Source: Nitrospira sp. LK70
Lineage (GTDB): Bacteria > Nitrospirota > Nitrospiria > Nitrospirales > Nitrospiraceae
Length of the DNA: 47,703 nucleotides
Direction: 5' to 3'
Assembly: GCA_011090425.1 (NCBI GenBank)
Contig: PHGD01000059.1
Span: 1-47,703, forward strand
The position numbers were made by a program, and so were the translations under genes. This document shows positions 19,735 to 47,278 of the stretch, one piece after another. Under the pieces are notes generated by a model. That model did no database searches and had not been told where the DNA came from. It saw nothing but the letters and a program-made list of their open reading frames with translations. Each line of letters opens with the position of its first letter. Positions within the stretch are counted from its first letter, which is position 1.

Positions 19735-20991
19735 ATGATTACCGACCAGTTCAGGTCTGACATCACACAAGCGAAGTTGATCGACCCCATTGATGCTTCT
19801 GCAGATCTTTCTTCACCAGCGTCGGCGCAGCCTCATTTTAGATCAAAAAAAAAGTTTTGGCTGAAGATTCACCTGTATTTGGGACTGTTCGGCGGCGGGC
19901 TGTTCGTATTGATGAGCCTCACCGGCAGCTTCTTGGTCTTCTATAAGGCCATCGACGAATGGTTGAATCCTGCTTTGGTGACGACGAACGGAGCGGGCAT
20001 CGTTCGACCGTTGAACGAAATTGTGTCAGCGGCGCAGGCAGCTGGTCCACCCGGCAGTCTGTTGGATAGTATCGAATGGCCGTCTTACCCACGGGGTGTC
20101 TTTCTCACCTGGCACAAGATGCCGGCCGATACAGTCGGTGGCTTCCGCTGGTTTCAAGTGGCCGTCGATCCGTGTACGGCAGCCGTGCTGACCAAAGACC
20201 GTGAATGGGGCGGATACCTGGTCTCGTTCATCTACAAGCTGCATGCATCACTCCTGATGGACGACGTTGGTGCGGCGATATTAGGGTTTGTCGCTATTGC
20301 CCTGCTCGTCTCGATTAGTACCGGTGTGTATCTTTGGTGGCCGCGCCCCGGCCGTCTCCGTCAGGCACTCAGCTTCACATCGACCATGAGTCCTATCCGT
20401 CGGCACTTCGAATGGCACAAACTCAGCGGATTCTACAGCGCGATCATCTTGGGGATGCTCGCCTTTACCGGTCTCTACCTGGAATTTAGCGACTATGTGG
20501 TTCCGATCGTTCGACTCTTTTCACCGGTTCAAGAATTTCCTGAAGAAGAAACGCTGGAATCCATTCCAATGACGGGCACTCCGCCATTGGCTGTCGAGGA
20601 GGTAATCGCGCTCGCGTGGCAGGTATTTCCCGAAGGAGAGTTGCGGTACCTTGGCCTGCCGCACGAAGCCCATGAGGTCTATCAGGTAGCGGTGCGTCAG
20701 GTGGGAGAAGTGCGGACATCGGGCGGTGAAAGCCAGATCTGGCTGGATCAATACAGCGGTAAGATCCTTCGCGTCCACGATTGGCGGCAGTTTACCGGAG
20801 GCGAAACGTTTTTGGCTTGGCTCTTCCCCCTGCACAACGGCGAAGCATTCGGCCTCGCCGGTCGATGGATCGTGTTCTTCATCGGATTTGTCCCCCTCGC
20901 GCTTTACGTCACCGCGCTGCGCATGTGGTGGCTCAAGCGACAGGCGCATCGCCGGCGATCGGCATATGATCCGAAGCATTCTGCGAAGTAG
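19735..20991 (+). CDS. PepSY-associated TM-helix membrane protein
   Basis: The 418-residue inner-membrane protein has the PepSY_TM layout: a first helix at about 43-70 (FWLKIHLYLGLFGGGLFVLM), a periplasmic part, helices near 185-207 and 232-250 (HKLSGFYSAIILGMLAFTG), a second periplasmic part with a PepSY-like segment, and a last helix at about 380-402 followed by a basic tail. Family members (PiuB, FsrB types) are often iron-regulated and some are ferric-siderophore reductases; conserved His in WLKIHLY, YKLHASLL, FEWHKLSG and FPLHNG are potential heme ligands. Its position after the TonB operon supports an iron role. A run of nine A (19845-19853) inside the gene is a possible slippage site. 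Confidence 0.82.
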   Translation: MITDQFRSDITQAKLIDPIDASADLSSPASAQPHFRSKKKFWLKIHLYLGLFGGGLFVLMSLTGSFLVFYKAIDEWLNPALVTTNGAGIVRPLNEIVSAAQAAGPPGSLLDSIEWPSYPRGVFLTWHKMPADTVGGFRWFQVAVDPCTAAVLTKDREWGGYLVSFIYKLHASLLMDDVGAAILGFVAIALLVSISTGVYLWWPRPGRLRQALSFTSTMSPIRRHFEWHKLSGFYSAIILGMLAFTGLYLEFSDYVVPIVRLFSPVQEFPEEETLESIPMTGTPPLAVEEVIALAWQVFPEGELRYLGLPHEAHEVYQVAVRQVGEVRTSGGESQIWLDQYSGKILRVHDWRQFTGGETFLAWLFPLHNGEAFGLAGRWIVFFIGFVPLALYVTALRMWWLKRQAHRRRSAYDPKHSAK

Positions 20992-33976: not shown

Positions 33977-35713
33977 CTATTGATAGTCCTCATTGAGCGA
34001 CCGGAGGAATGCCACCAGGGAGACGATGTCGTTGGTTAGGAGGGCGATGCCCTGAAGCTGGGCGGCTCCATTGCGCAGAGTTCCAGCGCGGGATTGATCC
34101 GAGACGTCACGGTAAAAAACGATGATGTCGTCCAACGTATCAAATTGCCCATTGTGCATGTAGGGTGCCGAATGTCCGAGGTCACGGAGGCCGGGCGTCT
34201 TGAATCGCGCGATGGCACGGTCGAGTAGGATCGAATCGGATAAGAGGCATGGGACCTGGTCGTCGCACAAGATGGCTCTGATTTTTGCTTGCGGGTTCGG
34301 CATATCAAGGTTGGCGAAGATGTTCCATACACCCAGATCGGTCAAGGTAGGGTCGGCAAGCAGGGGGATGGCTCGGAAGCGTCCTGAGGCGTTGGGATGG
34401 TTTTCCGTGCCAGGGAGGTAGGCATCGTAGTTTCCATCGCGAACGGTGAGGTTTGGGATCACGAGAGCGCCGAATGCATTGGCACCGTGAATACCGTCGT
34501 ATGCCTGTTGTGTCGTACCGGTATTATGCAACTTGAAATCGGTAAAGTTGGGTGCGGCATGGCAGGCAATGCAATTGCCGACCTTGCCAGCGGCGAGCTC
34601 GGCGGGTGACGCCACAGGCGTGGCAGGTTCTGTCAGGAACATCTTCAAGCCGGCCAGCTCTGTCGCACCGAACGCGAACGGCTGAGAGTGGAACTGAAAC
34701 TGTCCATTCGATCGGTTGGGATTGGAAGTCACAAATTGGGGAGAGAAACCCGGCGCGTTGATCAGGGCCCGAAGCCGTCGGCTATAGGAGAGTGGAGGCT
34801 CGTTCGGATTTGGTTGCTGAGGTAGGCCGTTGATCGCCAAGAACACATCAAACGGCGAGCGAATCGGCACTCCATTGTCGTCGGACTTGGAAAACCGAAG
34901 GCCGTTCACGTACGCCGTGACGACCTTCACGACCGCGTCAAAGACCTCTTGGTCGGTGCCTGAACCGATAAGGGCGCGAAATTGAGGAGGCAAGCGCAGT
35001 TCGTCGGGAATATTCGGGCTGGTGCCGGTAAATAACTCTCTGTAAGCCAAGCCGGTGTCGGTCAGATCGAAGGAACCATCGTCTTCTCGAACCACTTTTA
35101 CGATATGTGAAATCGCCTGAGCCTTTTCGCCGGGAAGCCAGCCAAAGTTTCGACCGGTAAAGGTCCCAACGACCAGGTCCTCCATGGAATTGAACTCGGC
35201 GTCGAAGTGGAGCAAGACGCCGCCTGGCCGGTTCAGGGAGGAGTTGACCAGCGGAGGAGAATTTCTTGGTGTGTTGGTATTCCCGTCGGCTCTTGCTGGA
35301 ATAGGACTGCGGCGCGCGAAGTCGGCATAGGACCTCATGCCGCCGCCGAGAGATGAGAGGACATCATCCACCAAGTGACAGGTCCGACAGTTCATTGCCA
35401 TGCCTTTGAACGGTCCCGGGTTGATCGGAGCTCCCAAGGTTTCGAGGGTAGCGACAACCGTATCGCCGGATTTGGGATCGTTGACCTTGCCGCCGTTGTC
35501 CATGAACACCTTGAACGACTGGGAAAATCTGGTGTCAAGGAACAGCCGTTCGCCGACGTCTTCCTCCGCGCCTGGCGTACCAGTCGAGACGGGAGATGGG
35601 GGAGGAGGCGAGCTCTCACCGCCAGAACAGGCAAGGAGGCCAACGAGGAAAAGGATGGAGCCTAGAAGGGCTAGGCATGTGGGTGTTTGATGAGGCTCAT
35701 AGGCATGACTCAT
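33977..35713 (-). CDS. di-heme cytochrome c peroxidase-like lipoprotein
   Basis: The 578-residue exported protein has a lipobox (LLAC, Cys29), so it should be lipid-anchored and periplasmic. Two heme-c sites, CRTCH (109-113) and CIACH (381-385), and the C-terminal TPGLRDLGHSAPYMHNGQF place it in the MauG/cytochrome c peroxidase superfamily. Usual CcpA enzymes are about 330 residues; this one is longer, with an insert between the hemes. Family members reduce H2O2 or carry out oxidative modification of a partner protein. It lies downstream of the HD-GYP gene and the FMN-protein operon, so it could take part in the same periplasmic electron transfer, which is inference. Confidence 0.85.
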   Translation of the reverse strand: MSHAYEPHQTPTCLALLGSILFLVGLLACSGGESSPPPPSPVSTGTPGAEEDVGERLFLDTRFSQSFKVFMDNGGKVNDPKSGDTVVATLETLGAPINPGPFKGMAMNCRTCHLVDDVLSSLGGGMRSYADFARRSPIPARADGNTNTPRNSPPLVNSSLNRPGGVLLHFDAEFNSMEDLVVGTFTGRNFGWLPGEKAQAISHIVKVVREDDGSFDLTDTGLAYRELFTGTSPNIPDELRLPPQFRALIGSGTDQEVFDAVVKVVTAYVNGLRFSKSDDNGVPIRSPFDVFLAINGLPQQPNPNEPPLSYSRRLRALINAPGFSPQFVTSNPNRSNGQFQFHSQPFAFGATELAGLKMFLTEPATPVASPAELAAGKVGNCIACHAAPNFTDFKLHNTGTTQQAYDGIHGANAFGALVIPNLTVRDGNYDAYLPGTENHPNASGRFRAIPLLADPTLTDLGVWNIFANLDMPNPQAKIRAILCDDQVPCLLSDSILLDRAIARFKTPGLRDLGHSAPYMHNGQFDTLDDIIVFYRDVSDQSRAGTLRNGAAQLQGIALLTNDIVSLVAFLRSLNEDYQ

Positions 35714-35845: not shown

Positions 35846-36538
35846 TCACCGCTGAGGTGTTCCTTCTACATAGGTGGTTGCTGTTTCTCCCATCAGTTCG
35901 ACCAAGAGATCAACGACAAAGGGATCGAATTGGGTTCCGGAGGCCACTCGCAGGATTCGGAGCGCGATACGATCGCGCAAAGATCGGTCGTGGACATGGG
36001 GAATCCGAATAGCCTCGAACGCGTCCGCGACGGCGAGAATCCTCGCGCCCAGTGGGATGAATTGTCCCCTCAGGCCGTAGGGATAGCCTGATCCATCCCA
36101 CCGCTCATGGTGATGGGCGATCAGGATGGTCGCGTCACGAAGGAATGAAAAAGGCTCGAGCAAGGTCGCTCCGAGTCGCGGATGATTTTGAATGACCACG
36201 TAGGAGTCCGGATCTTTGGCCTCTCGCCCGGTTTGGAGGTGAGACGGAAGCATCAGGAGACCGATGTCGTGGAGCAAAGCGGCCAGTTTCAATTGATGCA
36301 AGAGCTCGTCGCAGAGGTTCGCAGCAAGCCCCATACGAACCGCAACAGCCGCCGTTTCTTGACCATGCCCTGCTTGCCACGGCAGAAGCCGATCCAGTTC
36401 CTTCGTCACTTGTCGAACCAGAATACTCTCCAGATCGCGTCGCGATGTTGCCGGAATATGAAGGCGGTCGACCTTCTGCAGCATGCCTTGAATCTTCAGC
36501 ACGGCCGGTTCAACCGAATCCGCTATGTGGACCTGCAT
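35846..36538 (-). CDS. HD-GYP domain protein (cyclic-di-GMP phosphodiesterase-like)
   Basis: The 230-residue protein is nearly all HD-GYP domain. HDIG (90-93) supplies the first metal ligands and HHERWDGSGYP (143-153) the second His pair plus the GYP-loop equivalent, here GSGYPYGL. It has the residues expected for hydrolysing cyclic-di-GMP, but no receiver or sensor domain, so control must come from the N-terminal 50 residues or from expression. The ATG at 36538 is chosen because GGAGGTGAT, a near-perfect anti-16S match, lies just before it; a longer frame begins at 36574. A terminator stands immediately upstream, so it has its own promoter or relies on read-through. Confidence 0.85.
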   Translation of the reverse strand: MQVHIADSVEPAVLKIQGMLQKVDRLHIPATSRRDLESILVRQVTKELDRLLPWQAGHGQETAAVAVRMGLAANLCDELLHQLKLAALLHDIGLLMLPSHLQTGREAKDPDSYVVIQNHPRLGATLLEPFSFLRDATILIAHHHERWDGSGYPYGLRGQFIPLGARILAVADAFEAIRIPHVHDRSLRDRIALRILRVASGTQFDPFVVDLLVELMGETATTYVEGTPQR

Positions 36539-36560
36539 CGTATCACCTCCGTAAAAATGA

Positions 36561-36592
36561 AGAGCCCAAGACACTGTCGTGACCTGGGCTCT
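36561..36592 (-). terminator. terminator of the FMN-protein operon
   Basis: Read on the minus strand, AGAGCCCAGGTCAC pairs with GTGTCTTGGGCTCT (two mismatches, four-base loop) and is followed by TCATTTTT. It lies 50 bases after the stop of the membrane-protein gene. Its outer arm is shared with the terminators at 16.9 and 21.7 kb. Confidence 0.65.
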
Positions 36593-36641: not shown

Positions 36642-37196
36642 CTACGATTCTTGCGGTCCTTTCCCTCCCATCAGCGGTTGTCCGAGCACCCACATCTCAT
36701 ACAATGGGACAATCAGCATCACGAGAAAACTGATGGTCATCAGCGTATCACCGATCAACATCGAGAGGGCGAAAATAGGGGAGACGTAGCTGATCAACCA
36801 TGGCGACAGAAGGTCGAGAATCACACCGCCGAAGCCCGCCCATGTCAGGATCGTTTTCAGCCTGTGGCTCGCACTGGTCAGATACATCACGTGGATCAAA
36901 ATCATGAACACGACCGGCATCGTAAACAGATGAAAATGGGTGATCTCCGCCAGTTCTCGAAACGACATCGGTTCTCCGAACGTTGCATCAGACCCTCGAT
37001 AGTGATCGGCGACCCCTTGCGGTGACAGTCCCGTCATGCTATGTGCCCAAAAAAACGAGAAGCAAAAACCGGCAAACATCAACAGCAGGAAGAACGTATA
37101 CAACGACCGGATATGGCGATCGGAGTCACGGAGCCTGAATTTCTGATTGAAGTTACGCATGCCGGGACGCTGGGTCCGCCCGAAGTTAGTTTCCAA
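36642..37196 (-). CDS. four-helix His-containing membrane protein, partner of FMN-binding protein
   Basis: The 184-residue protein has four predicted membrane helices: about 31-51 (LYTFFLLLMFAGFCFSFFWA), 88-107, 113-137 and 141-168. His87, His89, His102 and His111 cluster around the second helix (THFHLFTMPVVFMILIHVMY) and could bind heme b or quinone. I do not know a characterised member; similar proteins are found beside FMN-binding domain proteins. It overlaps the FMN-binding gene by 11 bases, so the two are translated together. The simplest hypothesis is an electron path from the quinone pool through this protein to the periplasmic flavin. That function is inferred from context. Confidence 0.65.
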   Translation of the reverse strand: METNFGRTQRPGMRNFNQKFRLRDSDRHIRSLYTFFLLLMFAGFCFSFFWAHSMTGLSPQGVADHYRGSDATFGEPMSFRELAEITHFHLFTMPVVFMILIHVMYLTSASHRLKTILTWAGFGGVILDLLSPWLISYVSPIFALSMLIGDTLMTISFLVMLIVPLYEMWVLGQPLMGGKGPQES

Positions 37197-37854
37197 ATAT
37201 GGAGGAGAAGAACCCTTTATTTTTTTTCGCCATTGTGTCGCTGCCGTTTCCGGCCGGTTTCAAGTAATACTCGTCGATCAATACCAAGACTCGTTTGACT
37301 CCGGCGCTCATCGAGCGAACGGACATCGTGGCGCCGGTGATGTTGGTGATGTCGCGTTTGATCTGGATCGGATCGAGAACAGTCTTGCCTTCGTACTGGG
37401 CGTTAAACCGTTTTTTCCCGACGTCGCTCCCGCGCGATTCGCGGAACACAAGGAGTTCGACGTCCGAAACGGAACCTTCGTTATCGACGCCGACCAGGTA
37501 GGTCATCGGCTTGTGCTTGCCGATCGTATTTTGGACGACCGCATAGCCGTCAACCTGGCTATCGGACTCTCCGATATACACTTCGAACGATTCTTCCGGG
37601 AATTTCCAGCCGATCCGTTCCTCAATGTGGGCTTTCTTCTCCTGGGTGAGTTTGATCACCTCCTTGCGAATCTGTTGGGATTTCGGGAGCATGATCTTGA
37701 TCCCATCTTCCTCAGTCATGAACTCTTCAGCGGCGGTCATTTCCTGCTGCGTCAGATAACGCTTGAGGTCGTTATCCCAAATTCGCTCAGCTCTCGCTTG
37801 GGAGAGTGGCATCATGAGGATGGCGATGAGCACAACAGCTAGACGCGTGATCAT
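37186..37854 (-). CDS. periplasmic FMN-binding domain protein (covalent flavin)
   Basis: The 222-residue protein has a signal peptide ending QARA (residue 22) and an FMN_bind domain (about 95-198: VDGYAVVQNTIGKHKPMTYL, then VGVDNEGSVSDVELL). Residues 173-178 read TGATMS, the (S/T)GA(S/T)xS motif in which ApbE attaches FMN by a phosphoester to threonine, here probably Thr176. The required enzyme, ApbE, is encoded 2.8 kb away at 40614. Related domains occur in NqrC, RnfG and bacterial flavin-based reductases. The gene overlaps its neighbours on both sides (4 and 11 bases). The Lys-rich C-terminal tail is unusual. Its redox partner is presumably the adjacent membrane protein. Confidence 0.85.
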   Translation of the reverse strand: MITRLAVVLIAILMMPLSQARAERIWDNDLKRYLTQQEMTAAEEFMTEEDGIKIMLPKSQQIRKEVIKLTQEKKAHIEERIGWKFPEESFEVYIGESDSQVDGYAVVQNTIGKHKPMTYLVGVDNEGSVSDVELLVFRESRGSDVGKKRFNAQYEGKTVLDPIQIKRDITNITGATMSVRSMSAGVKRVLVLIDEYYLKPAGNGSDTMAKKNKGFFSSIFGN

Positions 37855-38324
37855 GACGAGGCCTCACAACCTTTCTCTTTGAGTCGAAGATGGAGTTTTT
37901 CCGTAACCGCGTTCGTTATTTGCTCTGATGGTTCGACAGCCCACCATTTCGTGGCCAGCTGGGACGCACCGCCCCTGTCATGCCAACGTTGGCGCGTTTC
38001 CAACACGTTGACCGACGTGACGTCGTCCATTTTCTTGACGGCCACCGTCAAGCGGGCCCGCTCGATGTTGCCGAACCCCTCGCGCCGAAACACCCCATAG
38101 GGCCGCTTCTGACCTTCCATTTCAATCCATGCGGTTTCAATGGTCCCGTCGGTCTTGTTGAGTGCCGTGATGGAGTAGCCCTTCGTCGATTCCACCGCTG
38201 CCTCCCAGACAGTGTCATAGGAGCAAACGAAGTAGGAATTTCGTCCGCCGGCGAGGCCGGCGCAGGCGGTCAACGACAACAGCCCAACGAGCATAAGATC
38301 CATAAGTCGTGTTCCGTACATCAA
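37851..38324 (-). CDS. lipoprotein of unknown function in the FMN operon
   Basis: The 157-residue protein has a signal sequence with lipobox LTAC (Cys21), followed by a soluble domain of mixed alpha/beta character (YDTVWEAAVESTKGYSITAL, KTDGTIETAWIEMEGQKRPY, ERARLTVAVKKMDDVTSVNV). The pattern of a conserved Trp in a first helix and a 'dG.I.t.w' strand is like that of several small outer-membrane-linked lipoproteins, but I cannot name the family. It overlaps the FMN-binding gene by four bases (ATGA) and follows the porin gene after 53 bases, so it probably tethers or links components of this system. Confidence 0.65.
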   Translation of the reverse strand: MMYGTRLMDLMLVGLLSLTACAGLAGGRNSYFVCSYDTVWEAAVESTKGYSITALNKTDGTIETAWIEMEGQKRPYGVFRREGFGNIERARLTVAVKKMDDVTSVNVLETRQRWHDRGGASQLATKWWAVEPSEQITNAVTEKLHLRLKEKGCEASS

Positions 38325-38336
38325 ATCATCATCTTG

Positions 38337-38369
38337 CGGGGAGGCTTCCCCTAGGAGAAAGCCTCCCCG
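38337..38369 (-). other. strong hairpin between porin and lipoprotein genes
   Basis: CGGGGAGGCTT and AAGCCTCCCCG form a perfect 11-base-pair stem with an 11-base loop directly after the porin stop. No T-run follows on the minus strand. It could cut off or stabilise part of the transcript so that the porin is made in excess over downstream proteins. Confidence 0.5.
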
Positions 38370-38377
38370 TCAACTCC

Positions 38378-39865
38378 CTAGAAATAGGTGGCAGCCGAAA
38401 TCACGAAGGCACTATCGTGAATCCGTTGTTCCGTATTGGGATTAAATGCCATCGGCTGATATTGATAGCTCATTTTGAAGACTGTGTCCTGGATGGGCCG
38501 ATAGTTCAAACCGAAGGAAAACTGCTGCAGATTGCCCCAGCCCCCTGTGCCATTAAGGTTATCCAGATCGGTGTTCACCCTGTCGTACCGGAATACAGCT
38601 GTGAAGGTGGAACCCTCACCAAACCGCTTCGGGGAAAGTTTCGTCAAGAACGCCGGCATGAAGTGATAGTTGCCCTGGATATAGAAGCCGCTTCCGCGCT
38701 GCGGCGGGATTCCAGGGCCACTATTGCCTGGTATCCCAGTCAGGAGTGAGCCTGGGGCAAATCCAATCGTGTTGCCGTTAATGGCTCGCGAGTTTCCCCT
38801 TGCATAGGACCAGGCGGCTTCGCCGATCAGTTCAAATGGTCCCCGCTGGAGCGTCCAGTCGACGGCGAAAATGCTGAGAGGGTTGTAACTTGAGTTGGGT
38901 GCTCCATTGCCATAATAGCCAGACCCAGCCACTTCGACTCCGAGCATAGGACTGAATGCCACGCGCCCGACCACGGACTTACCGTTGTTGAGATCCAGCC
39001 CATCGTCCGCCGGGCATTTCCGCTGCCGTGATCCTCTCGTGCCGTCTGCCTCGTTGATCCTAGGAGTTCCGTTGGGGTCGTATGAGCATGGTCCAGTCGT
39101 GAAATAGAATTCGTAGTCCAGTTTGCCTGTTCTTCCTGGATACATGGTTCCATAGAATCCTGCTCCTGTTTCAGTCATGGTACTAGGAATAACCAGCCGA
39201 CTGACCAAGGGACGATCGGTGAGGTCATTGAGCGGAGAATCATGCAGCAGGTTAAACTTGCCGACCGGAAGCAGCAAACTTCCGACGCGGATGTTGATAG
39301 GTTCCTTGATGAGGTAATCGATAAAAGCAAATTCTATCCCGACTTCGATTCCTTGCGTGGAATCCTCGCGAATGCCGTGCTCAAACTCAATTTCAGACGC
39401 GAACTTCACGTGCTCTGTGATGTCCGCATAGATGAAGGGGACGAACCTCTGCTGATCGAAACTGTTCGTTGTGCCGCCATAGCCGTTCTCGATGCTTGCT
39501 TGGCGTTGGGAGCGAAATTGAATGTCCATATAACCGCCAACAATCGCCTTCGGCGACGATACGAAGGGCTTGGCATACACCAAGCGGCCGGACCCGGTCG
39601 ATCCGAAGGAAAGAGGTGCTTGCTGCTGACTTCGGCGCTCTTTTGCGACTTCCGGCAGTGAGCCGATCCCTGGCTGGATCTCTTCACCCGGGGGACCTTC
39701 TTTCTGTTCGCCGAGTCCTTCGTGGCGGTCGCGTTCTTGCAGGCGTTTTTCCACTGCTTCATCGACCATCTTCTTGATTTCCTCCGGGGTCATCTCTGCA
39801 GCCCACACAGGCATGACTACCAGGCCGGCGATGACGAGAGCCCCGAGGATTGACCGCATCTTCAT
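38378..39865 (-). CDS. outer-membrane porin (phosphate-selective-porin-like)
   Basis: The 495-residue protein has a signal peptide ending VWA (about residue 22), a charged N-terminal helix that may form a trimer coiled coil (TPEEIKKMVDEAVEKRLQER), then a long beta-rich region with alternating aromatic strands and a C-terminal SAFVISAATYF ending in Phe, as outer-membrane barrels do. IVGGYMDIQFRSQRQ and EIEFEHGIREDS fit the OprO/OprP-like porin group. The real substrate is unknown. GGGAGG lies seven bases before the ATG. It is the first large gene of the FMN operon and would supply the system with substrate or metal. Confidence 0.8.
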   Translation of the reverse strand: MKMRSILGALVIAGLVVMPVWAAEMTPEEIKKMVDEAVEKRLQERDRHEGLGEQKEGPPGEEIQPGIGSLPEVAKERRSQQQAPLSFGSTGSGRLVYAKPFVSSPKAIVGGYMDIQFRSQRQASIENGYGGTTNSFDQQRFVPFIYADITEHVKFASEIEFEHGIREDSTQGIEVGIEFAFIDYLIKEPINIRVGSLLLPVGKFNLLHDSPLNDLTDRPLVSRLVIPSTMTETGAGFYGTMYPGRTGKLDYEFYFTTGPCSYDPNGTPRINEADGTRGSRQRKCPADDGLDLNNGKSVVGRVAFSPMLGVEVAGSGYYGNGAPNSSYNPLSIFAVDWTLQRGPFELIGEAAWSYARGNSRAINGNTIGFAPGSLLTGIPGNSGPGIPPQRGSGFYIQGNYHFMPAFLTKLSPKRFGEGSTFTAVFRYDRVNTDLDNLNGTGGWGNLQQFSFGLNYRPIQDTVFKMSYQYQPMAFNPNTEQRIHDSAFVISAATYF

Positions 39866-39997
39866 CGGTATCCTCCCTTATGAATAAGGTTGTGGTCTGA
39901 CTCGGGACTCGGTGGTCTCTGGCCTTTAAGCAAACAAAAGAGCTGTACTCGTGTAATGGAGGTGTGGTCGCTGCGCTTCCGTTCGCACAGTGGAGCA

Positions 39998-40174
39998 TCA
40001 TGTTCCGGTCCCCCAACCTTCAATCGAGGAAAAGGGAATCACGACGATGCGCTTGCACCGTTTGCACTTCAGCTCCAGTCCTTGCTCGCACACCTTGGCG
40101 ATCAATTGTCCGCATTCACAGCGAGTTTCCTGGCTCTTGACCCGATGGCGTTCGGGCACGTGCGTCATAATCAT
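39998..40174 (-). CDS. Com-like small zinc-ribbon protein (copy 2)
   Basis: The 58-residue product, too short for many gene finders, reads MIMTHVPERHRVKSQETRCE and continues CGQLIAKVCEQGLELKCKRC. Cys19, Cys21, Cys37 and Cys40 give the same CxC-X15-CxxC spacing as the copy at 19446, the pattern of the phage Mu translational activator Com. A second ATG two codons in is possible. It is the first gene after a good promoter (40227-40255) and is followed 130 bases later by the porin, so it is well placed to act on its own operon's mRNA; that idea is untested. Confidence 0.7.
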   Translation of the reverse strand: MIMTHVPERHRVKSQETRCECGQLIAKVCEQGLELKCKRCKRIVVIPFSSIEGWGTGT

Positions 40175-40200
40175 GGTGGTAGTTGATCAGTTTTGGAATT

Positions 40201-40219
40201 GAGAACAGTTATTAATATC
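40201..40219. promoter_or_regulatory. partial Fur-box match at the start of the FMN operon
   Basis: On the minus strand the 19 bases GATATTAATAACTGTTCTC match 13 of 19 positions of the classical Fur box. The site covers about +1 to +20 of the transcript from the promoter at 40227-40255, where binding would block transcription. A Fur-family gene is in the same window. The match is moderate and needs testing. Confidence 0.4.
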
Positions 40220-40226
40220 GGGCGCG

Positions 40227-40255
40227 AATCTATCCTACTCAGTGTTTGCTGTCAA
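40227..40255 (-). promoter_or_regulatory. promoter of the Com-porin-FMN operon
   Basis: On the minus strand a perfect TTGACA (40255-40250) is followed after 17 bases by TAGATT (40232-40227). Transcription would begin near 40220, about 46 bases before the Com-like start codon. Confidence 0.65.
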
Positions 40256-40316
40256 GGGGCGGGCCATCGGTCACATGCACGCCGAATGAGCGGAAAGTGC
40301 TGCTCAGCGGATAGCG

Positions 40317-40322
40317 TATAAT
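40317..40322 (+). promoter_or_regulatory. perfect -10 box at the start of the small gene before apbE
   Basis: TATAAT ends seven bases before the ATG at 40329, so transcription would begin at or next to the start codon. I see no good -35 box (the hexamer at the expected place is AAAGTG), so an activator may be needed. Confidence 0.5.
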
Positions 40323-40328
40323 GACGTC

Positions 40329-40598
40329 ATGTCGGTGGGATGGAATTCGTTCACCTACGTCGGGTTTTGGCGGTTTGGGGCGGATTCCCCCAAATATGGG
40401 CGCATGCTCAGCCTGTCAATGGAAGATGTAGAGGATGACCGCACCCATGCGACCGAATTCTTGATGCAGACCTACCCATCGTTGGACACACAAACGGTCG
40501 TGAGTGTCCTGCCAAATCCTCCCATTCTTCAAGCGCGCCTGTTCGAAGTCATGCCGTACCGGCGCTATCCCACATATTTTCGCCGGCAGTGGTGGTAA
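40329..40598 (+). CDS. small protein of unknown function upstream of apbE
   Basis: The 89-residue protein is rich in aromatic residues (SVGWNSFTYVGFWRFGADSP at the start, PYRRYPTYFRRQWW at the end) and has no signal peptide or Cys. The middle (DRTHATEFLMQTYPSLDTQT) looks like one helix and a turn. I do not recognise a family. It lies 15 bases before apbE on the same strand and divergent from the Com-porin-FMN operon, so it probably shares the apbE transcript. There is no ribosome-binding site, in line with a leaderless message. Confidence 0.5.
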   Translation: MSVGWNSFTYVGFWRFGADSPKYGRMLSLSMEDVEDDRTHATEFLMQTYPSLDTQTVVSVLPNPPILQARLFEVMPYRRYPTYFRRQWW

Positions 40599-40613
40599 GG
40601 ACATTCTGCCATT

Positions 40614-41639
40614 ATGAGGTTGCCTGGTGGAGATGATCTCAGAAAAACGATGGTCATCCTTGTACTAACCGGTTTGGTCGGCTGTGTGGAGGTGTCACCC
40701 GTTCCCGAGTCGGTCGTTGTCAAGCGGACTCAGATGCACATGGGGACGTTGGTTTCGATCACCGCAGTGGCGTCCCAGAAGAAGGTGGCGCAAGGGGCGA
40801 TTCAGGCTGGGTTCGATGAGATCAAGCGTCTCGAACGGTTGTTGAGTACCTGGATTCCCGCAAGCGAACTATCCCACGTCAATGCTGCAGCCGGTCGTCA
40901 TCCTGTCGAAGTCAGCCGGGAGACCTTGGACATCGTGGCGCGGTCCATCGAGATAGCTCGTCTGACGCAAGGGGGGTTCAATATCGCCGTCGGTCCTGCC
41001 GTCGACCTGTGGAGTGTTACCGAGCGACAGTACATTCCGAGCGATGTCGAATTGGATCAGCTGAAGACTCTGGTCGATTGGACGAACATTCAGCTCAATC
41101 GGGATGCCCGGACGATCTTCCTACCTCGCGAGGGAATGCGGATCGATGTCGGCGGAATCGGAAAGGGCTATGCCGCAGACCATGCGGTCATCGAAATGAA
41201 ACGGGCCGGCGCACAGGGAGGAGTTGTTGCCTTGTCGGGCGACATCAAGACGTTCGGCACGCTCCCCGATGCAAAAGGATTCCCGGTAGGCATCAATCAC
41301 CCTCGTGAAGAAGGGGCGTTGATTGCCGTCATCGACCTGAAGGATGAGGCCATTTCAACGGCCGGTGATTACGAACGGTTCTTCGAGCGGGATGGAGTCC
41401 GGTATCATCACATTTTGGACCCTCAAACCTTGCGACCAGCCCGTGGTTGTCAGAGCGTGACGGTCGTCGCCAAGGAAGGCACGATGGCGGATGGTTTGGA
41501 CACGGGGATTTTTGTGTTGGGACCTGAGCGCGGGATGGCCTTGGTGGAACGCTTGCCGCATGTTGAGGCGATCATCATCGACGATGAAGGACAGATGACC
41601 GTTTCATCCGGGCTCCGTGATCGGCTGCGTGTGCCATGA
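40614..41639 (+). CDS. apbE: FAD:protein FMN transferase
   Basis: ApbE cuts FAD and attaches the FMN half to a threonine of exported target proteins. The 341-residue protein has an N-terminal hydrophobic segment with lipobox LVGC (Cys24), so it is a periplasmic lipoprotein, as usual. Family motifs follow in order: HMGTLVSITA, SELSHVNAAAGRHPVEVS, GGFNIAVGPAVDLW, IDVGGIGKGYAADHAV and ISTAGDYERFF with HHILDPQTLRPA near the metal site. The probable substrate is the FMN-binding protein at 37186-37854, part of the divergent operon; no other TGAT-type target was seen in the window. Confidence 0.92.
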   Translation: MRLPGGDDLRKTMVILVLTGLVGCVEVSPVPESVVVKRTQMHMGTLVSITAVASQKKVAQGAIQAGFDEIKRLERLLSTWIPASELSHVNAAAGRHPVEVSRETLDIVARSIEIARLTQGGFNIAVGPAVDLWSVTERQYIPSDVELDQLKTLVDWTNIQLNRDARTIFLPREGMRIDVGGIGKGYAADHAVIEMKRAGAQGGVVALSGDIKTFGTLPDAKGFPVGINHPREEGALIAVIDLKDEAISTAGDYERFFERDGVRYHHILDPQTLRPARGCQSVTVVAKEGTMADGLDTGIFVLGPERGMALVERLPHVEAIIIDDEGQMTVSSGLRDRLRVP

Positions 41640-41867: not shown

Positions 41868-42242
41868 TCACAGCCGAACGACCTCCAAGCTGACCTGCTG
41901 AAAGCCTAAGCCACGAATCTCATCGACCAGCGCGACGAATTTTTCGAGCAATGTGACCTTGTCCGCCCGCACGACCACGGCCGATTCGCGAGCCTTGGTG
42001 CCCAAGACCGATGGGAGGCCGCCGGAGGGAACCGGAGCATCATTTAAGAACAGGTTTCCATCCGCAGTCAATGAAATCACGATGGGAACGTCCTTGTGGT
42101 CGCTTACCTCTTTGGCCTTGGCCAAGTTGACGGGAATCTGTCCCGTGCTGATGAAGGTGGCGGTCGTCAGCACGATGACGAGAAGGACCAACATGACATC
42201 CACGAGCGGGATGACGTTGATTTGATCAATGTTCCGTTCCAT
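41868..42242 (-). CDS. exbD: ExbD, TonB-system accessory protein (copy 2)
   Basis: The 124-residue protein has the single membrane helix with the essential Asp (INVIPLVDVMLVLLVIVL) and a periplasmic domain ending GLGFQQVSLEVVRL. It is closely similar to copy 1 at 17508-17882, so the two ExbBD pairs arose by duplication. The ATG at 42242 gives MERNIDQINVIPL, matching the first copy; a start 12 bases earlier is also open. It overlaps exbB by 17 bases. No tonB follows; the only tonB is beside copy 1. Confidence 0.9.
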   Translation of the reverse strand: MERNIDQINVIPLVDVMLVLLVIVLTTATFISTGQIPVNLAKAKEVSDHKDVPIVISLTADGNLFLNDAPVPSGGLPSVLGTKARESAVVVRADKVTLLEKFVALVDEIRGLGFQQVSLEVVRL

Positions 42243-42657
42243 GTTGCACTCCATACTCAGTCAGAAGTTCGGTGACCCGACGACGAAGCACATTGTTCAT
42301 CACGACGCAGGGAATGGCGACTAATAGCCCGATGGCGGTCGCCTTCAATGCCAGGCTCAAGCCGATCATGATGGTGTTGACCGCCATCGTTCCTGACGTT
42401 CCCATCGTGTGGAAGGTCAACATGATCCCCAGGACAGTTCCGAGCAGGCCGATATACGGAGCGTTGGCGGCCACGGTGCCGATAATCACGAGTCGCTTGG
42501 TCAACGTGATTTCCAGCAGCCGGGCATTTGAAAACTGTGAGAAATTGACCCGCCGGTAGAAGAGCCAGCGTTCGACGGCGACCGCGACAGACCAGAGGCT
42601 CAGGGCCAGCAAGAGCCCGATGATCCCATAATCAATGGTATTTTTCAGCGCATCCAT
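42226..42657 (-). CDS. exbB: ExbB, TonB-system proton channel subunit (copy 2)
   Basis: The 143-residue protein has three membrane helices and keeps the conserved glycines (GLLGTVLGIMLTF, GTSGTMAVNT) that are Arg in copy 1. AAGGAG lies five bases before the ATG at 42657; an ATG three bases earlier would be too close to it. With ExbD it converts the proton gradient into movement of TonB. Since copy 1 is altered in its core, this pair may be the working motor. It follows the ferric ABC transporter genes on the same strand after about 100 bases. Confidence 0.92.
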   Translation of the reverse strand: MDALKNTIDYGIIGLLLALSLWSVAVAVERWLFYRRVNFSQFSNARLLEITLTKRLVIIGTVAANAPYIGLLGTVLGIMLTFHTMGTSGTMAVNTIMIGLSLALKATAIGLLVAIPCVVMNNVLRRRVTELLTEYGVQHGTEH

Positions 42658-42758
42658 CATAACTCCTTACTAATGTGAAAATATGGTTCGATCCGGTAGG
42701 CTGGGAGCCAACGCATCCTTTCATGAATGCCAGACCCGAGGGGAAACTGTCAATCCAC

Positions 42759-43910
42759 TCACGTATCGCTTTTATCCCGTTGCTGCGAGCGAGGAGGCTG
42801 TTCGGCAGGAAACACCACGGTGTGCGTGGCAGAGACGCGGAGTTCCACGGCGGTCCCTTCCTCGTAGACGTTGGTTGAGCTTTCGCTGCTGTGGACCATC
42901 TGTCCGGAGGGCAGGCGGATCGTATAGAGGTTCTCCGAACCTCGGAACAGGCGAGCCGCAACCCGCGGTTTCGCCGATTTGTTGGGCACCAGCTGGATGT
43001 CGTCAGGGCGAATCATCACGACGACTTCGCTTTCCTCGGGACGATTGAGGGTATTGGGAAACTCTCCGAGTTCAGTATGGACCAGGCCCTGGCGGACCTG
43101 TCCGGTGATAAAATCGGCTTGACCCACAAAATCGGCCACGAATCGTGTAGCCGGAAGGTGGTAAATGAGCTCCGGCGAATCCAGCTGTTCGAGCATTCCC
43201 TGATTCAGTACGGCGATGCGGTCGGCCATGGCAAAGGCTTCGTCGTGATCGTGCGTCACTAGAATCGTCGTGGTTTTCATCCGATGCAGCAGGGCATGGA
43301 GCTCTTGCCGCATGCGGCCGGCCATATCGGGATCCAGGTTGCTGAACGGCTCATCCAGGAGGAGCAAGACGGGATGCTGCACGAGTGCGCGTGACAGGGC
43401 CACTCGTTGCTGTTGCCCTCCCGATAACTCATGCGGGTAACGTCGGTCGAGTCCTTCGAGGCCGGTCAGCCGAAGCATGTCTTGGACACGACATCTCCGC
43501 TCCGCTCGCGACAGGTGGCGGAGCCCGAAGGCGATGTTGTCGGCGACGCGCAAATGTGGAAAGAGCGCGTACTCTTGAAAGACCATGCCCACACGGCGTG
43601 CTTCGGTTGGAAGGGTTTCCGAGGAGGAGGAGACTAACCGGCCTGATAGAAAAATCTGTCCGGCCTGCACCGGTTCGAGACCCGCGATCGCCCGCAAAAT
43701 GGTCGTCTTGCCGCAGCCTGATGGACCGAGCAGGCAGAGAATTTCACCTTCCCGGGCGGAAAATGAAATATCGTGGATCGCAGGCCTGCTGAGATCATAG
43801 GCACAGGACACAGAACGAAGCTCCAAGATGGAAGAGGCCGGCTGGTAGAGATTCACTTGGCCGTCGAGCTGCTCGATATCCACCTGTGTGCTGTGCGATG
43901 GTGTGTTCAT
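42759..43910 (-). CDS. fbpC: ferric-type ABC transporter ATP-binding protein
   Basis: The 383-residue ATPase powers import of a periplasmic ligand, most likely Fe(III). Walker A (GPSGCGKTT near residue 67), Q-loop (VFQEYALFPHLRV), signature LSGGQQQR, Walker B (LLLLDEPFSNLD) and the switch His (VTHDHDEA) are all present. A C-terminal TOBE-like regulatory region (MIRPDDIQLVPNKSAKPRVA) follows, as in FbpC, PotA and MalK. The open frame starts nine codons earlier with GTG inside the permease gene; the ATG at 43910 lies after the permease stop. Gene order fbpA-fbpB-fbpC matches ferric ABC operons. Confidence 0.9.
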   Translation of the reverse strand: MNTPSHSTQVDIEQLDGQVNLYQPASSILELRSVSCAYDLSRPAIHDISFSAREGEILCLLGPSGCGKTTILRAIAGLEPVQAGQIFLSGRLVSSSSETLPTEARRVGMVFQEYALFPHLRVADNIAFGLRHLSRAERRCRVQDMLRLTGLEGLDRRYPHELSGGQQQRVALSRALVQHPVLLLLDEPFSNLDPDMAGRMRQELHALLHRMKTTTILVTHDHDEAFAMADRIAVLNQGMLEQLDSPELIYHLPATRFVADFVGQADFITGQVRQGLVHTELGEFPNTLNRPEESEVVVMIRPDDIQLVPNKSAKPRVAARLFRGSENLYTIRLPSGQMVHSSESSTNVYEEGTAVELRVSATHTVVFPAEQPPRSQQRDKSDT

Positions 43911-43917
43911 GGTCGTT

Positions 43918-45501
43918 TTATGCTGCCCGCCAATCACGGGAGAGCAATAAGACCAGCGCCGGCAAACCTACGAGCACGATCAACAGGGCGGATGGAGCCG
44001 CCAGCTGATAGTACTCTTCACTTGCCTCCAGCCAGACACGAATTGCCAAGGTGTCGAATCCCACCGGTCGCAGCAGCAACGTTGCCGGGAGTTCCTTCAT
44101 CGTCTGCAAAAAGATCAAGACCCAGGCCACGATGACCCCGTTGCGGATGAGGGGTAACGTCACGCGACGCCAGGTATCTCGGACGGTAAGACCCAGGGTG
44201 CGGGCGACTTCCTCCAGATTAGGGGTGATTTGTTGAATCGATGGTTCGAGCGACTGGAGGCCGACTGGGAGAAAATGAAGGACATAGGCGACGATTAATA
44301 CGATCACCGTACCATACAGGAATGGGAGGACTTTCAGAAAGAGGACCAACACCGCGAGCGCCGCGACTGGTCCTGGTAGGACGTAGCCGGCATAGGCGGT
44401 TTGCAAACAGCCGACATTAAGCCAGGTCGGTTTGCGGCTGGCCAGGTAGGCGAGGGGCAGTCCGACGAACACTCCTGCCGTGGCAGCCAGGGTCGACAGC
44501 AAGGCGCTGTTCCACACAAAACCGAAGAAGCGGGCGTCGAGGATTGCCTGGGCTTCCGCCGACAGGCTCCAGGTCACCAGTAGATAAGCTGGGATTCCAA
44601 AAGCCAAGCCGATGACGGTGGCCAAGCATGCCGTCAAAGCGGTCGCGTGCAACCATCCGCACCGGACTCGTTGTGGTGTCTGAAAGCGTCCGGAGGTCTG
44701 GTAAAACCGGCTCTTTCGACGAAACCATCGTTCGGTCAATAAGAACAGGAGCGCCAGGATGACCAGTAAGATGCTCAGGATGCTCGCGGCCTGATTGTCG
44801 GACCGGCCGGTCATTTGCTGAAACACGGCGTAGGTCAGTGTTTGGTAGCGCAGTAGGGAGACGGCACCGAAGTCTGAGACGACGTACAGGATGACAAGGG
44901 CGAGACCGGCGACGATGGACGGGCGCAGCAATGGGAGCGTGACGAACAGCATTCTGTGAAGTGGTGAAGCGCCGCAGGTACGGGCCACTTCCTCAAACGA
45001 CAGGTTAAAACTCAGGAGCGCGCTGCGTGTGAGCAAGTAGACGAAGGGAAACGTGTCGAGCGCCATCACGACGGTGACGCCCCAAAAACTTTGCGGTGAA
45101 ATGATTCTGGCTTGAGAACCTGCGATCGTCTGCCAGAGCTGTTCTACCGGGCCGCCGAATCCCAAGAGATAGTTGTACACGTAGGCCAAGACGTACGTCG
45201 GCATGGCCAGCGGCAGCACGAGGCCAATTTCCCACAGGCGACGGCCAGGGAATTCGAAGCGCGTGACCATCCAGGCGGTTGATACGCCGAGCACGAATGT
45301 GAGCAAGGCCACGGCACCGGCCAGAGAAACCGTATTCAACAACAGCTCAGGGATACGGGTGGTCCAGAGACGATGCCAAATCGCAGCATCGGCCGACAGG
45401 GCTAGGGCAGTGACATAGCCCAATGGCAGGAGGACCAAAGTCGCGCCGGCGAGGACCGCGAGTTGTAGGGGAGAGACAGATGGTCGGTGTATGGCAATCA
45501 C
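43918..45501 (-). CDS. fbpB: ferric-type ABC transporter permease (fused, 12 helices)
   Basis: The 527-residue inner-membrane protein carries two homologous permease halves in one chain, as in FbpB/SfuB. Each half has a cytoplasmic EAA loop that docks on the ATPase: EEVARTCGASPLHRMLFVTL near 190 and EEVARTLGLTVRDTWRRVTL near 455. About twelve hydrophobic helices are visible. It is 15 bases downstream of fbpA and precedes fbpC, all on the minus strand, as one operon. Confidence 0.92.
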   Translation of the reverse strand: MIAIHRPSVSPLQLAVLAGATLVLLPLGYVTALALSADAAIWHRLWTTRIPELLLNTVSLAGAVALLTFVLGVSTAWMVTRFEFPGRRLWEIGLVLPLAMPTYVLAYVYNYLLGFGGPVEQLWQTIAGSQARIISPQSFWGVTVVMALDTFPFVYLLTRSALLSFNLSFEEVARTCGASPLHRMLFVTLPLLRPSIVAGLALVILYVVSDFGAVSLLRYQTLTYAVFQQMTGRSDNQAASILSILLVILALLFLLTERWFRRKSRFYQTSGRFQTPQRVRCGWLHATALTACLATVIGLAFGIPAYLLVTWSLSAEAQAILDARFFGFVWNSALLSTLAATAGVFVGLPLAYLASRKPTWLNVGCLQTAYAGYVLPGPVAALAVLVLFLKVLPFLYGTVIVLIVAYVLHFLPVGLQSLEPSIQQITPNLEEVARTLGLTVRDTWRRVTLPLIRNGVIVAWVLIFLQTMKELPATLLLRPVGFDTLAIRVWLEASEEYYQLAAPSALLIVLVGLPALVLLLSRDWRAA

Positions 45502-45516: not shown

Positions 45517-46584
45517 TTACCGCATCCCCACCTGCTCGATGAGAAGCAATGTGGGTTCTCGCAGTTCGGCCAACTTGCTCAAAGGCACCAGGGCCGCTCG
45601 AAAGCTCTTGCGTTCGATCAGCGCTGGGTCTGCCTTGACCTCAGGATGGAGTGGGTACTCCTTGTCGAGGTCGGCGAACAGCTTCTGCCCGGCCTGCGCA
45701 ATGAGAAACTCCACGAGCAATTTGGCGTTTTCCAATCGGGGAGTGTGTTTTAGGATGCCGATGCCCGCCACATTCATGATGGCACCCATGCCTCCTTCCT
45801 GTTGATCGGGCATTACAACCGCCAGCGGAGCAGCCGGTTGTGTGGCCAGATGCCGATAGACGTAATAGTGATTGACGATACCCACGGCGACCTGACCTTT
45901 GGCGACGGCGTCGACGATCTGCGAGCTCTTCTGATACACCTGGGTGCCGGCATTATCCCGAAGGCCTTCGAGAAACTTCCTGGTTTGATCGTCACCGACG
46001 CTCGCGCGGATGACCGACACACCTGCTTGCAGATATTCGCTGCCGGCGTTGGGAATGGCGATCTTGTTCTTCCATTTCGGGTCGGCCAAGTCCAGCAACG
46101 ACGTGATCTGATCGGGTTTCACCATCGTCGTGTTGTACACAACGATCCAAAATCGTCCTGACAAACCGATCCAACTGTTGTCCACCGCGCGAAACTGGGG
46201 AGGAATGGCCCGTTCGACCTCCCGCATATTCAACGGGCGAAGGAGGCCCGCAGCGCGAGCCATTTCCAGACTGCCGGCATCGTTGGTAATAAAGACATCG
46301 GCAGGGCTGCGGTTCCCTTCTGCCTTCATTCGATTCACCAACTCCATGGTGCCGGAGGAGAGCAACTCGATTTGAATACCGGTCTTCGCGGTAAACTCAT
46401 CGAGTACCGGCTTAATCAGCCGTTCAGCTCGACCGGAATAGACGGTCAGCTTGTCCGCAGCCGATGCGAGGGGTGGCATGATCAGCCAAAAGGACATGAG
46501 GATGCCGGCAACTGAAACAGCGAGGAGCTTGAGTTGAGAGGCAATAGTCGTGGCGCGAGGGGAACGTCGGCAAAATAAGTGCAT
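45517..46584 (-). CDS. fbpA: periplasmic ferric-ion-binding protein of ABC transporter
   Basis: The 355-residue protein has a signal peptide ending ASAA (about residue 43) and the fold of class II periplasmic iron-binding proteins: KLTVYSGRAERLIKPVLDEF at the mature start, SPADVFITNDAGSLEMARAA, GRFWIVVYNTT and VGIVNHYYVYRHL, whose paired Tyr residues are the usual ferric-iron ligands. It binds Fe(III) after release in the periplasm and hands it to FbpB. The start ATG at 46584 follows AGAAGGG; a TTG two codons earlier is open. The fur gene lies just upstream on the same strand, 80 bases away. Confidence 0.92.
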   Translation of the reverse strand: MHLFCRRSPRATTIASQLKLLAVSVAGILMSFWLIMPPLASAADKLTVYSGRAERLIKPVLDEFTAKTGIQIELLSSGTMELVNRMKAEGNRSPADVFITNDAGSLEMARAAGLLRPLNMREVERAIPPQFRAVDNSWIGLSGRFWIVVYNTTMVKPDQITSLLDLADPKWKNKIAIPNAGSEYLQAGVSVIRASVGDDQTRKFLEGLRDNAGTQVYQKSSQIVDAVAKGQVAVGIVNHYYVYRHLATQPAAPLAVVMPDQQEGGMGAIMNVAGIGILKHTPRLENAKLLVEFLIAQAGQKLFADLDKEYPLHPEVKADPALIERKSFRAALVPLSKLAELREPTLLLIEQVGMR

Positions 46585-46666
46585 AGTCAACCCTTCTGTC
46601 TACGTGGAGGAGAGTGGAATCAGGCAAGCCGCCTTAAAAAACGAATACCAGAAACAGCAGCAGGGG

Positions 46667-47101
46667 TCAATGACGGCAGCGAGAGCAGAGCCCGTAGAGC
46701 TCGAGGCGGTGAGTTTGGATGGCAAAGCCGTTCCGCGAAGCCACTTCTTCCTGAAGACGCTCAATGTCGCAGTTCTCGAATTCCACTATTTTCCCACAGC
46801 CTGTGCAAATAAGATGATCATGATGGCCCTTATGCGACACATTGTCGTACTGGGTTTGTGTACCGAAGTGCCTGGCCTGGGCCAGACCCGCTTCGCAGAA
46901 GAGATTGAGCGTGCGGTAAATGGTCGCGAGGCCCAGGTGTGGATCCTTACGCGCCAGCTGGTGGTACATCGCTTCGGCCGTGATGTGTTCCTGCTTCAGA
47001 AAGGCATCGAGGATCAATTCACGCTGCCGCGTAAATTTGAGCTGGTGCTTCCCAAGATGCTCCTTCAGGACCCCCATTTCTTTGGCATGTTTCGTCATCA
47101 T
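46667..47101 (-). CDS. fur: Fur-family metal-responsive repressor
   Basis: The 144-residue regulator has the N-terminal winged helix (LKEHLGKHQLKFTRQRELIL, GLATIYRTLNLFCEAGL, the recognition helix) and the C-terminal dimer/metal domain with HHDHLICTGC (93-102) and CSRC (139-142). These give the His-rich regulatory site and two CxxC structural-zinc pairs. With Fe(II) bound, Fur represses iron-uptake genes; Zur or PerR roles cannot be excluded, but the neighbouring ferric transporter favours Fur. The open frame reaches 47236, beyond its own promoter. TAGGAGG before the double ATG at 47101 and the promoter position fix the start. Confidence 0.92.
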   Translation of the reverse strand: MMTKHAKEMGVLKEHLGKHQLKFTRQRELILDAFLKQEHITAEAMYHQLARKDPHLGLATIYRTLNLFCEAGLAQARHFGTQTQYDNVSHKGHHDHLICTGCGKIVEFENCDIERLQEEVASRNGFAIQTHRLELYGLCSRCRH

Positions 47102-47128
47102 GATCAGACCGAGCCTCCTAGATGGAGA

Positions 47129-47157
47129 ATTAAAGACGAAACTGAGCAGCCGGTCAA
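47129..47157 (-). promoter_or_regulatory. promoter of the fur-fbpABC region
   Basis: On the minus strand TTGACC (47157-47152) and TTTAAT (47134-47129) are 17 bases apart. Transcription would begin near 47122, 20 bases before the fur ATG. No clear Fur box overlaps it. Confidence 0.65.
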
Positions 47158-47278
47158 GAGTGTCTTCGTCGAATGGATAGCCATCTCCAATTCCCTTTGA
47201 CGATCGCTTTCCCGGCTGTCTATAGTGGAGCCCCACGGCTTTACGACCGTGATTCCTGATGGTGCTTTGACGACACCT

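Follow-up and report, generated by a model that had tools for sequence, protein, structure and literature searches.

Five minus-strand genes and a divergent apbE gene on contig PHGD01000059.1 of Nitrospira sp. LK70, at positions 36,642 to 41,639 of the 47,703-nucleotide stretch that was analysed as a whole (the window), form a conserved unit that we consider reasonably likely to be an iron-starvation-induced, porin-coupled periplasmic flavin electron-transfer module, acting as a ferric reductase or relay for iron assimilation. Its core comprises a porin, an exported flavin mononucleotide (FMN)-binding protein of the FMN_bind family and a small four-helix inner-membrane protein, here called MEM, whose family has no Pfam or NCBIfam entry and is conserved over several phyla. 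An earlier note on this DNA had described the five-gene operon with ApbE beside it and had taken them for one periplasmic redox module. All of these genes are found at the locus: on the minus strand they are transcribed in the order Com-like protein (COM), porin, lipoprotein, FMN_bind protein and MEM, and ApbE reads divergently on the plus strand across a gap of ~440 bp. The idea that they belong together is borne out by the conserved gene order and by the presence of a single ApbE and a single FMN_bind gene in the 4.7 Mb genome. The last three genes had been said to overlap, which is right for the lipoprotein and FMN_bind genes (4 bp, the sole overlap among the module genes) but not for MEM, which begins at an ATG at 37160, 25 bp past the FMN_bind stop. 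We place the start there because the conserved N-terminus (MRNFN) begins at this codon, which also makes an alternative TTG start that would overlap FMN_bind unlikely.

MEM occurs in 77 of 98 related genomes, a comparison set spanning one order, apparently Nitrospirales; in one of these the homologue is distant, and the other 76 have clear orthologues. All 76 genomes with MEM also have a module-type FMN_bind gene, as does one of the 22 that lack MEM (Fisher 1.7e-20, uncorrected for relatedness), a count that excludes a second ApbE/FMN_bind pair of some genomes, which has stronger Pfam scores and longer frames and is presumably of the Nqr type. In 75 of the 76 genomes, FMN_bind is adjacent to MEM. 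Porin, lipoprotein, FMN_bind and MEM stand together in all 20 Nitrospirales loci compared (with the lipoprotein before the porin in L035), the gene order is conserved across four Nitrospirales families, and the order COM–porin–FMN–MEM is retained in other orders and classes of Nitrospirota. When a divergent MEM alignment was run against 84,980 species genomes, it returned 80 loci, which belong to Nitrospirota, Rokubacteria, Calditrichota/KSB1, Binatota, deltaproteobacterial and myxococcal metagenome-assembled genomes and many Methylococcales, with the porin–FMN–MEM order intact in nearly all of them. The co-occurrence search suggested in the earlier note thus finds MEM with FMN_bind and a porin well beyond close relatives, in several phyla. 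In 106 of 112 loci a strict script called FMN_bind immediately upstream of MEM, four of the six exceptions showing an FMN frame beside MEM on inspection, and in 94 it called a porin before that, several of the loci without a called porin ending at contig ends. Besides these three, no gene family appears in more than 18 of the 80 neighbourhoods, and the core unit is therefore porin–FMN–MEM, an arrangement far beyond chance. The conserved set is narrower than the operon taken as a unit before: among the loci examined here the lipoprotein was found in Nitrospirales only, and COM, which is kept before the porin in most Nitrospirota loci and some deltaproteobacterial loci, is missing in methanotrophs.

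The FMN_bind domain is recognised by PF04205 at E 2.5e-8 (34.9 bits against a curated cut-off of 22) and ApbE by PF02424 at E 1.3e-83. Since the genome's only members of both families lie at this locus, this ApbE has one obvious client. The acceptor motif TGATMS with Thr176 had been read correctly in the sequence, and [ST]GA[ST] is found in 93 of 106 FMN_bind homologues, the remainder having nearly all xGAT or xGST. Among solved structures, the closest relatives are NqrC/RnfG (RnfG chain 9eri_G, E 1e-8). By family membership, ApbE would attach FMN to Thr176. In five Nitrospirota loci (L086, 7127-8668 on the minus strand, L087, L089, L090 and L092) ApbE and FMN_bind make up one reading frame, a fusion that is Pfam-confirmed in one of the five. 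There the ApbE domain comes first, without a signal peptide, and is followed by an internal signal resembling that of twin-arginine translocation ([SNK]RRxFLA plus a hydrophobic stretch) and then by FMN_bind; with this layout the protein may receive its flavin in the cytosol and be exported afterwards, or it may have an unusual topology. Another locus (L098, 3928-5849, plus strand) holds a tandem of a MEM-like gene, an FMN_bind-like gene without [ST]GA[ST] and a c-heme MEM-like gene, which may be a degenerate or non-covalent version.

MEM gave no match to Pfam or NCBIfam at E up to 1, and its homologues from other phyla gave no meaningful match in a family-model search. Family models of the known flavinylation partners (PepSY, MsrQ, NapH, DsbD, NqrB/RnfD and DUF4405) showed no sequence match to it, and Foldseek searches of the PDB and of viral proteins gave no significant relative. 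A relation to heme-copper oxidases was suggested by VIA structural neighbours (Z 8.5) but gained no support from hhalign against subunits I, which returned a probability of 0.4% with E 0.17. Across 112 sequences, Y54, G56, E72, H75, H77, H90 and W121 are invariant. The AlphaFold model (predicted local distance difference test, pLDDT, of 90) consists of four long helices and a short surface helix, with all three invariant histidines on helix 2; by the positive-inside rule, H90 would point toward the cytoplasm and the other six invariant residues toward the periplasm. A plasmid search with MEM returned no match, and one with the FMN_bind protein returned porin-FMN_bind-ApbE variants. In this alpha- and betaproteobacterial plasmid cassette, the gene after porin, FMN_bind and ApbE encodes a different small, His-containing multi-helix protein that weakly matches b561/DUF4405, the L102 copy being weakly DUF4405-like. 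Replacement of MEM by such a protein is what an electron-transfer role for MEM predicts, and by this analogy suggests that MEM carries electrons. The cassette hosts are Ideonella (L102), Methylocystis (L103), where it lies beside multicopper oxidases, and Bradyrhizobium (L104).

By profile comparison, MEM matches a family of ~250-aa four-helix proteins with one CxxCH in a periplasmic loop (probability 97.9%, E 3.5e-13); this c-type heme motif is present in none of the module proteins of the window. In one Methylococcales locus (L269, 6750-11432, minus strand) a member of the c-heme branch comes after genes for a monoheme cytochrome c, a decaheme cytochrome c and MtrB/PioB. The gene order is that of the cluster 02045-02048 of an electrogenic Methylobacter, the last protein of which is a four-helix inner-membrane monoheme cytochrome (PMC13322032), and the equivalence of the two rests on order and content. 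Elsewhere the c-heme branch adjoins proteins that carry CxxCH at the N-terminus and resemble heme-porins. Its place in an MtrA–MtrB cluster makes it probable that MEM serves outer-membrane porin systems as their electron partner in the inner membrane, here with covalent flavin replacing the hemes, and the window module appears to be the flavin-based equivalent of a porin-cytochrome system. Two Nitrospira relatives (L054, 4628-7110, minus strand; L055, 5817-8304, plus strand) have a gene for a four-helix c-heme protein and, after it, genes for a monoheme cytochrome c and an N-terminal-CxxCH protein with the look of a Cyc2-like heme-porin, possibly an outer-membrane electron system.

The porin, identified as such in the earlier note, does not reach the gathering cut-off of Porin_O_P (PF07396; 17.9 bits against 20.9, E 0.002), but the modeled structure is a 16-stranded barrel that matches the trimeric porins PorB, OprP, OprO and OmpM1 at E ~1e-11. 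Mean pLDDT of the model is 72, being higher in the barrel strands and poor in the N-terminal region and several loops. An assignment to DUF3570, the large flavinylated protein in PMC8238504, was discarded as the window porin lacks the [ST]GA[ST] motif. The label Com-like holds for COM only as a weak match to PHROG Com families (E 0.002-0.004), with no match in Pfam. Com of phage Mu is an mRNA-binding translation activator, and by analogy COM could be a regulator of porin translation.

Iron enters the picture through the promoter and the neighbouring genes. The partial Fur box noticed earlier upstream of COM scores 13/19, and its position is conserved in relatives: all 17 Nitrospirales loci examined have an element like it, about as far upstream of COM, which reaches 15-16/19 in eleven. 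In other lineages the porin is preceded by clear Fur-like boxes, such as TATAATGATAATCATTATCATA in a Nitrospirota genome, GATAATGATTCTCAATTTC in Binatia and AAATAAGAATCATTTGCAT in many Methylococcales, and boxes of 16-18/19 were found in L089, L093, L094, L095 and L052. A score of at least 14/19 to the standard consensus is reached by 37 of 62 porin promoters versus 31 of 506 other promoters in the same loci (Fisher 4e-23), where the loci are not independent, some of the control promoters are divergent neighbours sharing the box, and the count does not depend on the one of three box patterns that was picked after the sites had been seen. Searching the whole genome with the module's box recovered the window site and otherwise background-level matches, the only other match of a narrower pattern lying inside dnaE. 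We predict that the module is under iron-starvation (Fur) control.

The earlier statement that iron genes lie all around the module agrees with the annotation. Between 17 and 27 kb the window encodes ExbBD-TonB, PepSY_TM, FecR and a TonB receptor, and on the other side of the module are ExbD/ExbB (41.9-42.7 kb), giving two ExbBD pairs overall, a Fe(III)-type ATP-binding cassette (ABC) transporter (42.8-46.6 kb) and a FUR-family regulator. The FutA/FbpA-type binding protein of this transporter has the Fe3+ binding protein 7li0 as its best match (E 1.4e-52), and its Tyr-Tyr pair and a third Tyr upstream align with ligand positions of solved Fe(III)-binding proteins. ExbD/ExbB is kept beside the module in most loci examined within the genus. 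ABC genes are also found beside the module in L088, L089, L092 and L184, and in L050 and L051 (family f2) they run into porin–lipoprotein–FMN–MEM on the same strand, directly before the porin. The PepSY_TM protein (19735-20991), near ExbBD-TonB, FecR and the TonB receptor, belongs to a family with ferric-reductase members and is a possible second iron reductase in the same iron island.

In the mechanism that we favour, ApbE would put FMN on Thr176 of the exported FMN_bind protein, MEM would pass membrane electrons, most likely from quinol, to this FMN, and the flavin would then reduce ferric iron or a ferric chelate in the periplasm, the ferric substrate entering at least partly through the dedicated porin. 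For Nitrospirota, gene linkage suggests that the released iron would be imported by the neighbouring FutA/FbpA-type ABC transporter. We prefer iron assimilation to respiration because of the predicted Fur control. The scheme in the earlier note, with electrons running from the quinone pool through the membrane protein and the flavin to Fe(III) or a ferric chelate as a suggested acceptor, is thereby supported in part. Several points weigh against this interpretation. The alpha- and betaproteobacterial variants have no detectable Fur box, no iron transporter is regularly found beside the module outside Nitrospirota, and a Fe(III)-binding transporter would by itself need no reductase. With its invariant histidines on one helix, the MEM model offers no obvious bis-His heme pair within a single subunit, so that MEM could bind heme only as a dimer or with further ligands; a quinone or metal site is just as possible. 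A further proposal, to which we give a minority share of the probability, is that the module is a second, iron-free kind of porin-based electron system, in which a membrane family that elsewhere bears a c-heme and adjoins MtrAB is paired, in several phyla, with a covalently flavinylated carrier and a 16-stranded porin and is induced by iron starvation. Cells might then reduce ferric iron at the outer membrane, or across it, with no iron invested in multiheme cytochromes.

The homology of MEM to the four-helix c-heme protein that lies beside MtrA-MtrB (PMC13322032) and beside heme-porin-like proteins, as well as the porin in the core of nearly all complete loci, would also suit an extracellular electron conduit similar to MtrAB, in which electrons leaving MEM would cross the outer membrane by way of the FMN protein and porin and reach external acceptors, serving respiration or redox balance. 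We think this unlikely, since the barrel is of the 16-stranded diffusion-porin type and does not resemble MtrB, a protein with a single FMN cannot bridge the outer membrane, and Fur-type control suits assimilation better than respiration. A different use of the flavin would be an iron-sparing swap, by which the flavin protein replaces a cytochrome c under iron starvation in a periplasmic job unrelated to iron uptake, e.g. the disposal of quinol electrons or peroxide defence. The same membrane family is indeed common to flavin and c-heme versions, and a MauG/peroxidase-like gene lies near the module in Nitrospirales and six methanotroph loci, but the dedicated porin and the linkage to Fe(III) ABC import would be left unexplained, and we give such a swap little credence.

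Electrons might instead run the other way, with the porin admitting Fe(II) or Cu(I), the flavin oxidising it, the electrons passing to quinone and Fe(III) to the binding protein. Two points speak for this scheme: the binding protein next door belongs to the Fe(III) class, and one plasmid version adjoins multicopper oxidases. FMN_bind proteins in characterised systems have low potentials, which counts against it. Iron-linked flavinylated systems have moreover so far been interpreted as reductases (PMC8238504), and we regard reverse flow as improbable. Mere coincidence of neighbours with separate jobs is hardly credible: although the lipoprotein, COM and apbE come and go among lineages, the porin-FMN-MEM order is kept over several phyla with little else conserved around it, including the strict FMN_bind–MEM adjacency counted above (106/112).

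Viewed as a flavin-based iron-assimilation module, the locus can be compared with several known systems. The adjacent transporter resembles FbpABC/FutABC importers, with a binding protein that matches Fe(III)-binding proteins of known structure. We know of no need of those importers for a flavinylated reductase or a dedicated porin. The FMN_bind protein differs from NqrC/RnfG in standing alone, with no other Nqr/Rnf subunit in the module. With MtrAB and the Methylobacter cluster (PMC13322032) the module shares a porin, a periplasmic carrier and a four-helix inner-membrane protein of the same superfamily, yet it has a 16-stranded diffusion-type porin and one FMN protein in place of MtrB and MtrA, and no multiheme c cytochrome. 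Previous work on flavinylated extracytosolic electron-transfer systems listed five uncharacterised membrane partners (Meheust 2021, PMC8238504), and DUF4405 was added as a flavinylation-associated cytochrome (Huang 2024, PMC11334425). Like the systems in the former study, several of which are linked to iron assimilation, the module combines ApbE, an exported FMN_bind protein with [ST]GA[ST] and a membrane electron-transfer protein; unlike them, its membrane protein is not NapH-, MsrQ-, PepSY-, DsbD- or Nqr/Rnf-like by sequence, and a dedicated porin belongs to its core. DUF4405 cytochromes are likewise small His-containing membrane proteins clustered with apbE, but MEM does not match DUF4405 and has four helices and an HxH...H pattern. 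As MEM is none of the known partners by sequence and porins are unmentioned in the main texts of both papers, we regard the module as a new form of extracytosolic electron transfer by flavinylated proteins. We found no description of a porin-FMN_bind-apbE cluster, or of its role in Nitrospira or methanotrophs, in the open-access literature (subscription papers and supplements were outside the search).

Coordinates of the module and its flanking genes are given in the table below. A MauG/MbnH-like di-heme protein is encoded beside the module in several Nitrospirales genera, and six methanotroph loci have a di-heme peroxidase-like gene nearby.

Table 1. Features of the module and its surroundings in the window
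Feature	Coordinates	Strand	Basis or remark
MEM, four-helix inner-membrane protein, 172 aa	36642..37160	-	Model pLDDT 90; no Pfam/NCBIfam family
FMN_bind protein, exported; predicted covalent FMN on Thr176 of TGATMS	37186..37854	-	PF04205
Small lipoprotein, LSLTAC lipobox; weakly DUF3576-like	37851..38321	-	E 0.034, below cut-off
Porin; predicted 16-stranded beta-barrel with N-terminal periplasmic helix	38378..39865	-	Structure model
COM, 58-aa zinc-ribbon-like protein, CxC...CxxC	39998..40174	-	Sequence pattern and conserved position
Fur-like box GATATTAATAACTGTTCTC, upstream of COM	40201..40219	-	13/19 against consensus
ApbE, FAD:protein FMN transferase; sole ApbE of the genome	40614..41639	+	PF02424
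ExbD and ExbB	41868..42660	-	Profile matches
Fe(III)-type ABC ATPase	42759..43937	-	Family profile matches
Fe(III)-type ABC permease	43918..45501	-	Family profile matches
FutA/FbpA-type binding protein	45517..46590	-	7li0 match, E 1.4e-52
Fur-family regulator	46667..47236	-	PF01475, E 1.8e-34
HD-domain protein downstream of MEM; accessory, membership uncertain	35846..36574	-	
MauG/MbnH-like di-heme protein, downstream; accessory, membership uncertain	33977..35713	-	Poor Pfam score

If the proposed function is right, nitrite-oxidising relatives of Nitrospira and many Methylococcales methanotrophs, major players in the nitrogen and methane cycles, would share a reductase for iron assimilation, and a membrane-protein family without a Pfam entry would gain a function. 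The shared membrane component joins flavinylation biology to porin-cytochrome electron transfer, and a direct test would be feasible in culturable Methylobacter or Methylovulum.

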